Shown here: piece after piece, positions 28,641 to 31,326 of the stretch | Layout: each line of letters opens with the position of its first letter | Position numbering within the stretch: the first letter of the stretch is position 1 | Assembly: GCA_014378555.1 (NCBI GenBank) | Contig: JACMNN010000009.1 | Coordinates: 1 to 38,784 of the forward strand | Origin: Burkholderiales bacterium | GTDB lineage: Bacteria; Pseudomonadota; Gammaproteobacteria; Burkholderiales; Casimicrobiaceae | DNA: 38,784 bases | Direction of reading: 5' to 3' | Made by a program: the position numbers and the translations under genes | Notes under the pieces: generated by a model | What the model saw: the letters and a program-made list of their open reading frames with translations, nothing else | What the model was told of the DNA's origin: nothing | Databases searched by the model: none

Positions 28641-30092
28641 CTATTTCGAGGGCTGCGCAGCAGGCACTACAGCCTTGGCCGTCGTGCCCACGGCCTCCAC
28701 AGTAGAACGCACCACCGGCAAGCCTTTGAGCTTGTTGATCGCCTGTGAGTACAGATAGTCTTTGTCGTTGCCCCAATCAAAACCCTTGAGCTTTTTATTG
28801 TCGTCGCGGGCTTTGATCATCTTGGCCTCTTGAGCGTCTTCGGACGTATCCTCGTCGGCGTTCGATTCTTTCTTCTCGTCCTTGCCAACCAAATGACGGC
28901 TTAGGTCTTTCTCGCGTTGCAGCTTGGGCGACATAACGCCATCTGATGTCAACTGTTCAATCAACACATCAGGCTCAATGCCGGTGCCCTGAATGGAGCG
29001 ACCATTCGGCGTGAAGTAGCGTGACGTGGTGAGCTTGACACCAGTCGTTTGCGACAGCGGAATAATGTTCTGCACCGAGCCCTTACCGAAGGTCGTGGTG
29101 CCCATCACCGTGGCGCGTTTGTGGTCCTGCAGCGCGCCAGCAACGATTTCGGAAGCAGAGGCTGCTCCGCCGTTAATTAGCACCACAATCGGCACGGTTT
29201 TGAGGATGTCTGGCGCGTTGGCGAGCGCATCGGCGCCGCGCCGAGAATAGAACTCTTTCGACGCGAAATATTTCGTTCGGCTGCCATCCATTCGACCTTC
29301 GGTGTACACCACCAGCGCATCTTTCGGCAGGAACATTGCGGACAAGCCAACCGCCGCATCAAGCAATCCGCCGGGGTTGTTGCGTAAGTCCAGCACCACG
29401 CCTTTGAGCGGCGATTGCGCGTTCTGTTCGGTCAGCACTTTGGCCACGTCAGACACTGTGGTTTCGTTGAACATGCGCACCCGCACAAACGAAACGCCGG
29501 GCTCAATCAGCTTGGCTTTGACGCCCTGAATCTTGATTTGCTCGCGCGTTAAGGTGTAGGTTTGAGTGCTGCGATCGTCCTTACGAAACACTTCAAGTTT
29601 GACCTTAGTGCCAGGCAAACCGCGCATCATGTCAACGGCTTTAGTCGTGGTCAAACCACGGGTCGACTCGCCGTCCACCTTGGTAATTAGGTCGCCCGAG
29701 CGAAAGCCTGCCTTGGCTGCCGGCGTTTCGTCAATGGGCGTGACAACTTTAATAAAGCCGTCTTCAATGCCGATCTCGATACCAATGCCGCCGAATTTTC
29801 CGGTGGTCGAGGTGCGCAAATCTTTAAACGCCGCGTCATCCAGAAAATTTGAGTGCGGATCAAGGCTCGACACCATGCCGCTAATGGCCTGCTCAATCAG
29901 TTTTTTGTCACTCACCGGCTCGACGTAATCATTTTTGATGCGCGCGAACACTTCCGAAAAAACGCGCAACTCATCAATCGGAATCGCAGTTTTTGCGTCC
30001 CTCTGCGCATCGACCGTAATGGCCAACGACAGCGCTACGCCCAACGTTGCGCCCGCGCCGATCCACGTGAATTTTTGCCATGTTCCGCTCAT
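28641..30092 (-). CDS. ctpA: C-terminal processing peptidase (S41 family)
   Basis: PDZ domain (GGIGIEIGIEDGFIKVVTPIDETPAAKAGFRSGDLITKVDG) and protease core DLRNNPGGLLDAAV ... VLINGGAASASEIVAGALQDHKRATVMGTTTFGKGSVQ. Confidence 0.95.
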   Translation of the reverse strand: MSGTWQKFTWIGAGATLGVALSLAITVDAQRDAKTAIPIDELRVFSEVFARIKNDYVEPVSDKKLIEQAISGMVSSLDPHSNFLDDAAFKDLRTSTTGKFGGIGIEIGIEDGFIKVVTPIDETPAAKAGFRSGDLITKVDGESTRGLTTTKAVDMMRGLPGTKVKLEVFRKDDRSTQTYTLTREQIKIQGVKAKLIEPGVSFVRVRMFNETTVSDVAKVLTEQNAQSPLKGVVLDLRNNPGGLLDAAVGLSAMFLPKDALVVYTEGRMDGSRTKYFASKEFYSRRGADALANAPDILKTVPIVVLINGGAASASEIVAGALQDHKRATVMGTTTFGKGSVQNIIPLSQTTGVKLTTSRYFTPNGRSIQGTGIEPDVLIEQLTSDGVMSPKLQREKDLSRHLVGKDEKKESNADEDTSEDAQEAKMIKARDDNKKLKGFDWGNDKDYLYSQAINKLKGLPVVRSTVEAVGTTAKAVVPAAQPSK

Positions 30093-30224
30093 TGAAAACC
30101 TCTTTAACTACCGGAGTGATGCTTGCGTGTCATGCATTCTTAATGCTTGACACGCGATATTAGACGATTCGCGGACGGCGTGACGCCGTACTTAGTAACC
30201 AAAAGTGACACCGCTGCTGCGGCA

Positions 30225-30261
30225 ATAAAAAAGGGCGACCCATCGTTAGATAAAGTCGCCC
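30225..30261 (-). terminator. Rho-independent terminator
   Basis: 7-bp perfect stem GGGCGAC/GTCGCCC (30233-30239 / 30255-30261) followed on the minus strand by TTTTTTATT. Confidence 0.8.
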
Positions 30262-30341
30262 TGAACGTCACCATAGGCGGGCCGGGGGAAGTCCGCCATG
30301 GGAGGATGACAGACGCACGGAAGAGGGGGTCAACCGTGCGT
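30233..30341 (-). ncRNA. Candidate structured sRNA with two C-rich-loop hairpins and a rho-independent terminator
   Basis: Minus strand: ACGCACGG-TTGACCCCCTCTT-CCGTGCGT; CCATGGCGG-ACTTCCCCCGGC-CCGCC(T)ATGG; GGGCGAC-loop-GTCGCCC-TTTTTTATT. The 5' end is unknown and may extend toward 30411. Confidence 0.55.
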
Positions 30342-30411
30342 TGTCTTGCCACAACAGTAAGAACACCTGACTTTCGAAAAGTTCAAATATTCCTTGCAAC
30401 TCCTAAGTGAT

Positions 30412-31326
30412 TTACGAGGAAATCAGTGCATTGGTTTCAGCCCGGTTGGGAATGCCCACCCGACCACCGAATCTTGAGCATTTGATCGACGCGGCAGCCG
30501 TGGCAAATTGCAGCGCTTGCTGCAATGGTTGACGTTCGGCCAGCGCCAACGCCAACGCCCCGTGCCAAGTGTCGCCAGCCGCAAGGGTGTCGATGCAGAC
30601 GGTGGCGCGCGCGGGCAGATGCCGCACTGCAACACCGTCAAACCACATTACGCCGCGCTCGCCCAGCGTCACAGCACAGAACACATTGTTGCCGCCAAAC
30701 GCACGCGGCAACGCGATGCGTGGCGGTCCCCAGCCAAGGCTGGTCAACATCGGTTCGCTAAATGCTGAATGCGTGGCGCGTTGCGAGATAGTGAGCACTT
30801 CTTTCGCGTCGCCCGCGTCGGCATCAAACACGCCTGGAATATTCGCAGCAAAGGCAGCGTCGAACAGCGCAATCGCACCCGCCTTCCAGCGTGAATCGGC
30901 ATGGACAGCGTCGGCCCGCTTCACGTCATCCAGCGGCAACCACGATGTGTCCGGTGGATACCCCTGCGACGGGGCGGAGCACACTAACCGCTCGCCGCGC
31001 GCATCGACCAAAATGGCAGCGGTCTTCGATCGCGCACCGGGCAGACGGTGGACGTGATCCACGTTGACATGCTCGAGCCTTAGCAGGCGAAGGATCTGAT
31101 CGCCCACATCGTCGTCCCCGACGCGGCCCCAATACTGCGCCTCGCCGCCCAGCCGTTGCACAGCAACCGCAGCGTTGGCGGCCATTCCGCCGCCGGTGAC
31201 GATAAATTCGGTGGCGCGAAATTTAGCCGGCGCAGGCGGAATGTGATCGACCCGAAATATTTGGTCGAGCGTGGCCACACCAAGGCAAATGACCTTTGCT
31301 TTGCGTGGCGAAGCAGCAGGATTCAC
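30412..31326 (-). CDS. PfkB-family (ribokinase-like) sugar kinase
   Basis: [38 protein letters not shown] ... [21 protein letters not shown] (DTxGAGD-like). Confidence 0.92.

Follow-up and report, generated by a model that had tools for sequence, protein, structure and literature searches.

The intergenic region between a PfkB-type carbohydrate kinase gene and ctpA in this Burkholderiales genome raises the question of whether it encodes an RNA in its own right and, if so, what that RNA does. An initial annotation of the window (the whole 38,784-nt stretch of contig JACMNN010000009.1 that was analysed) placed a candidate small RNA (sRNA) with C-rich, anti-Shine-Dalgarno (anti-SD)-like loops at 30225-30411 on the minus strand. 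We conclude that the locus is almost certainly a real conserved sRNA gene, but that this span is too wide on its 5' side, where it includes the kinase spacer and the promoter, the RNA running from about 30350 to 30227. The features of the locus are as follows.

30412 to 31326, minus strand: PfkB-type carbohydrate kinase gene, upstream neighbour (from the list of open reading frames; name as in the initial annotation)
30411 to 30386, minus strand: spacer 3' of the kinase stop codon
30358 to 30385, minus strand: sigma-E (RpoE/ECF)-type promoter, TGAACTTT-N15-TCTTA, conserved in 13 of 13 aligned sequences
About 30350, minus strand: 5' end predicted from promoter geometry, at the G of GGCAAGAC
30227 to 30350, minus strand: sRNA gene, about 124 nt, with its start predicted from promoter geometry and its end from the terminator
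30308 to 30345, minus strand: hairpin H1, an 8-bp stem plus a further outer stem, with the loop UUGACCCCCUCUU at 30333-30321
30300 to 30307, minus strand: linker AUCCUCCC, anti-SD-like, with CCUCCC invariant in 13 of 13
30271 to 30300, minus strand: hairpin H2, with the C-rich loop ACUUCCCCCGGC at 30292-30281 and a C-run at 30288-30284
30262 to 30272, minus strand: conserved GGUGACGUUCA, separating H2 from the terminator and nearly invariant in relatives
30227 to 30261, minus strand: intrinsic terminator H3, GGGCGAC...GUCGCCC-UUUUUU, conserved
30157 to 30167, minus strand: TCGTCTAATAT upstream of ctpA, present in almost every ctpA upstream region aligned
28641 to 30092, minus strand: ctpA, C-terminal processing protease gene, downstream neighbour (from the list of open reading frames; name as in the initial annotation)

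All of the elements first described, three strong minus-strand hairpins with C-rich loops and a terminator, are present. The 8-bp stem of H1 pairs ACGCACGG (30341-30334) with CCGUGCGU (30320-30313). Read with one more flanking position, the linker is CAUCCUCCC (30308-30300), and its 3' UCCC could form pairs with the GGUGA at the base of H2, whose stem (30300-30293 and 30280-30271) contains one bulge and may be closed by part of GGUGACGUUCA. H3 consists of a 7-bp stem, GGGCGAC/GUCGCCC (30261-30255 and 30239-30233), followed by UUUUUUAUU. The suggested folding check gave -71 kcal/mol for 30225-30411, with z = -5.05 against dinucleotide shuffles; the 130-nt core scored z = -5.16 against shuffles, and values ranged from -3.4 to -6.1 over the ten sequences folded. 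Relatives share no conserved reading frame, in agreement with the earlier view that no credible ORF fits the region.

An alignment of 13 sequences, made from the ctpA upstream regions of the window and of 12 relatives, shows flanks that are not conserved and, between them, blocks that are: the promoter, the initial GUGGCAAGAC, the CCCUC of the H1 loop (nearly invariant), CCUCCC, UUCCCCCG within H2 (invariant in 13 of 13), GGUGACGUU and the terminator. Compensatory changes occur in 15 of the 33 pairs of the consensus fold. Double changes fall in five of six pairs of helix 2 of H1 and one of four of helix 3, in six of the eight stem pairs of H2, and in three of nine pairs of H3; the basal helix between the linker UCCC and the GGUGA of H2 never varies, so that covariation is neutral on it. 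Double-change cells number 36 against 13.5 in shuffles (0 of 500 shuffles as high), and 94.4% of cells pair, against 86.5% in shuffles and 36-62% in slid versions, with the caution that related sequences may beat such shuffles even without structure. The double changes in 15 pairs, together with the collapse on sliding, are strong evidence for structure. Both compensatory stem changes and near-invariant C-runs and linker, whose absence had been named beforehand as grounds for abandoning the sRNA, are thus found in the 13 sequences, and the proposal of an sRNA with C-rich anti-SD-like loops stands.

Where a weak upstream promoter had been suspected, we find instead a conserved promoter of the sigma-E type in every aligned sequence. 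The window carries a -35 GAACTT (30384-30379), a 16-nt spacer and a -10 TCTTA (30362-30358); the aligned upstream block reads TTGAACTTTT...CATCTTA, with GAACTT separated from TCT by 16 nt in 12 aligned sequences and 17 in one, and the -10 context of the window, TTCTTA, departs most from the CATCTTA of relatives. The strict motif TGAACTTT-N15-TCTNA is present as a single copy in 12 of the genus's 17 genomes, always before the sRNA, and the reversed-motif control matched three times over all 17. Published sigma-E boxes are GGAACTTTT and GTCAAA (PMC1804206); the -35 of the window equals the former, while its -10 TCTTA differs from the latter. Among the attributes expected of a sigma-E-dependent sRNA, the locus shows GAACTT and TC[AT] boxes 16-17 nt apart, its own intrinsic terminator and no conserved ORF.

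RpoE is found above the curated cut-off in 15 of the 17 genomes, and in all 14 readable rpoE loci GAACT[TC]-N16/17-TC[AT] stands some 80-140 nt ahead of rpoE. When the motif was relaxed and searched across the family, TTGAACTT-N16-TCT[GC]A also came up upstream of hfq, in 11 of 16 loci, with near matches in others, among them GAACTC-N16-TCTGA in the genome studied here (L194). Shared by the sRNA, rpoE and hfq, the motif acts like the lineage's own sigma-E box, which puts the sRNA in the core set; on the strength of these boxes, transcription of the sRNA by sigma-E is very probable. The hfq box of the genus (L191-L205) lies about 90-125 nt upstream and is of a conserved sigma-E type, and hfq itself seems, from its promoter, to belong to the envelope stress regulon in this genus. 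We also note the motif in sister genus g5 (L118, L120 and L121) before a gene with a BepA/YfgC-like N-terminus, as judged by eye, and in genus g3 (L132-L134) before a gene for a small exported protein; both are presumptive members of the sigma-E regulon.

A covariance model (R1) detects the sRNA in 16 of the 17 genomes of the genus, the sole genome without a match being G003, an assembly of 1010 contigs that is 85% complete. Clear matches in a DNA search of 60 related genomes were confined to the same genus, and the covariance model gave no convincing match in 47 other genomes of the family (sister genera) or among 300 genomes sampled from the order. Matches in G020, G028 and G319 were judged unrelated from their sequences, and an extra weak match in G007 also looks unrelated. 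A pattern scan of GTDB contigs returned seven loci, all in Betaproteobacteria/Burkholderiales MAGs and coinciding with the genus genomes. The sRNA keeps its position between the kinase and ctpA in G002, G008 and G016, although in the small and diverged G008 and G016 little is left beyond a hairpin with the loop UUUCCCCCGA and a terminator, and no sigma-E box is visible at the sRNA locus of these two. In these reduced genomes of 2.5-2.6 Mb the sRNA (L082 and L083) has also lost most of H1.

The arrangement of the locus invites the idea, raised in the initial annotation, that the RNA derives from the 3'UTR of the kinase mRNA, or the related one that it is just an elaborate kinase terminator; in the window the sRNA does start about 60 nt beyond the kinase stop codon and on the strand of the kinase. 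The sRNA nonetheless has its own conserved promoter, and although a kinase orthologue lies at the same place in most relatives, none was found there in G001, G010 and G015. G001 and G015 have in its place an ABC transporter gene that diverges from the sRNA, and G010 has another, co-directional gene. The sRNA is thus not derived from the kinase 3'UTR and does not need transcription of the kinase, and we reject that origin. A simple terminator, in turn, fits poorly with H1, the linker and H2 keeping their loops conserved too, and this whole explanation appears extremely improbable. On the other side, a ctpA orthologue follows the sRNA on its own strand in every relative examined, a position that could instead point to a cis-acting 5' leader or attenuator of ctpA, for which stress control would be plausible given that CtpA is an envelope protease. 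A strong conserved terminator, however, precedes ctpA, the distance between sRNA and ctpA varies (several hundred nt in L012 and L014), and the conserved C-rich loops are better suited to pairing in trans. Further downstream, ctpA retains its own conserved -10-like element, TCGTCTAATAT, which is probably its -10 region, so that we consider the leader very unlikely. Nearly all relatives keep this element, with no -35 conserved to the same degree.

For an independently transcribed sRNA, it could still be asked whether its promoter is read by an ECF sigma factor other than RpoE, since ECF promoters resemble one another and several genomes encode a second, more distant RpoE-like sigma factor. Against this, rpoE carries the same kind of boxes, as expected for autoregulation, and the -35 is identical to the published sigma-E box (PMC1804206); the alternative is unlikely. 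Similarly improbable is that the sRNA titrates a protein, such as an RNA-binding regulator, instead of pairing with mRNA. Its repeated single-stranded C-rich patches are possible protein-binding sites and GGUGACGUUCA is conserved without an assigned role, but the patches are complementary to the SD, as in experimentally studied sRNAs of the same order (PMC12235514), and there are none of the GGA-in-loop repeats typical of CsrA/RsmA sponges.

We return to a sigma-E-driven sRNA that pairs in trans and ask where it stands among known RNAs. The Infernal/Rfam check recommended at the outset found no Rfam family at gathering score anywhere in the window. C-rich loops act against SD regions in RsaE, Rhodobacter CcsR1-4 and the Neisseria sibling sRNAs, to which the candidate had been likened; the likeness stands as a functional analogy and is not accompanied by an Rfam match at the locus. 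MicA and RybB pair via a 5' seed, and neither matches the sRNA in Rfam, at gathering or at E <= 10. In Escherichia/Salmonella these two are about 70 and 80 nt long (PMC1804206), and in enteric bacteria sigma-E sRNAs act to repress the synthesis of outer-membrane proteins (PMC8103513). The sRNA resembles them as a stand-alone intergenic gene with sigma-E -35/-10 boxes and, in its proposed role, as the repressive side of the envelope stress response (PMC1804206; PMC8103513). It differs from them in its length of about 124 nt, its three internal C-rich patches and its gene neighbours. ErsA, a sigma-22/AlgU-dependent sRNA of Pseudomonas, offers a further example driven by an envelope-stress ECF factor in a non-enteric proteobacterium, likened here by description and not by sequence, as its lineage and neighbourhood are different. 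The best reading is that the sRNA is a functional analogue of MicA, RybB and ErsA and not a known homologue.

In Bordetella, of the same order, the main Hfq hubs are sRNAs that are rich in C/T and complementary to the SD (PMC12235514). Two of these from Bordetella pertussis, CT_433 and CT_521, share with the sRNA, by description, a conserved C/T-rich SD-complementary stretch before the terminator and are Hfq dependent, but they lie at other loci (CT_521 beside rpoH) and CT_433 is apparently Bvg controlled (PMC12235514). CT_532 of the same species is a proposed MicA homologue with proposed pairing to the ompA 5'UTR, and because its level is unchanged in an rseA mutant it is apparently RpoE independent (PMC12235514), whereas the sRNA described here is predicted to be sigma-E driven. 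An exact-word search of part of the literature found no sigma-E-dependent sRNAs in Betaproteobacteria, which is weak evidence.

Three Rfam families of Burkholderiales sRNAs were considered and rejected: RF02278 (Betaproteobacteria toxic sRNA; best score 12 bits against a gathering score of 50), RF02837 (anti-hemB; at most 24.4 bits in relatives against 49.5) and RF02871 (ncS54; best score 11.6 bits against 43), the first two of which also have CCUCC/C-rich stretches and a terminator. Matches to RF02278 within the genus lie elsewhere than the sRNA locus, and those in sister genera are different CCUCC-rich RNAs. These sister-genus RNAs (L046, L049, L053, L055, L056 and L062) share an upstream palindrome-like cTTGC[AG]TTGTGCAGTGCAATATG, similar to a PhaR box that overlaps a promoter. 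Two genomes of the genus hold a second C-rich candidate sRNA (L059, 1501-1543 and upstream; L068, 1501-1544 and upstream) with a sigma-70-like TTGACA...TAATAT, a hairpin with the loop ACCCCCUCGAUACACCUCC, a terminator and a weak RF02278 match of 24-26 bits. The sRNA upstream of ctpA lies outside every described RNA family tested and represents a new family within a known kind of RNA.

Taken as a whole, the locus probably encodes an independently transcribed and terminated trans-acting sRNA of about 124 nt, driven by sigma-E and acting as an anti-SD repressor, probably with Hfq. This reading takes conservation, covariation, the promoter, the terminator and promoter sharing with rpoE and hfq from the sequence, and we infer transcription, dependence on sigma-E and Hfq, the anti-SD mode and the targets. 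Envelope stress would free sigma-E, which would transcribe rpoE (autoregulation), hfq and the sRNA from one type of promoter. The sRNA, probably with Hfq, would then expose up to three C-rich patches (the H1 loop GACCCCCUCU, the linker AUCCUCCC and the H2 loop CUUCCCCCGG) that could pair with G-rich SD regions and keep envelope and other mRNAs from being translated, which would provide sigma-E with a repressive arm. Hfq is encoded in 16 of the 17 genomes, the sRNA has a 3' U-run, and Hfq binding is predicted; by analogy with related systems, repression in trans through anti-SD pairing and Hfq seems reasonably likely.

Prediction of targets is more speculative. Complements of the H2 loop before ATG number 158 against 52 in the reversed control, a comparison confounded by SD richness, and the recurrent target clusters (PII [glnB/glnK], a membrane protein and an exported protein) are indistinguishable from plain SD conservation; only PII and a membrane protein form clusters spanning four genomes. 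The PII start region carries CGGGGGAA, the exact complement of the H2 loop, a few nucleotides before ATG in four genomes (L229, L158, L241 and L258), and could be a target of the sRNA or just an SD. For one porin group, whose SD is of the AAGGAGGAUU type, the linker is an unusually good partner: in six genomes 0-11% of background start regions do as well. Other porin start regions pair like the background, which is a small set of 38 start regions from this window only, and the H1-loop pattern covers five of nine genomes. Almost any strong SD can serve as a partner of the C-rich patches, porins generally do no better than background, and it is rather doubtful that outer-membrane proteins are the main targets. 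We suggest, as tentatively, that one sigma-E signal might deliver both an anti-SD sRNA and the chaperone it needs, through hfq, so that the sRNA would serve as a broad brake on translation and not as a porin-specific repressor.

The locus adds a genus-wide RNA family without an Rfam model, together with a likely trigger in sigma-E and a probable partner in Hfq, whose gene has a matching promoter. Given that CT_532 of Bordetella is apparently RpoE independent, the sRNA would represent an independently built repressive arm of the sigma-E response in Betaproteobacteria. If this is true, it would be a case of convergent network wiring reached by a different pairing strategy, with C-rich anti-SD patches in place of a 5' seed.
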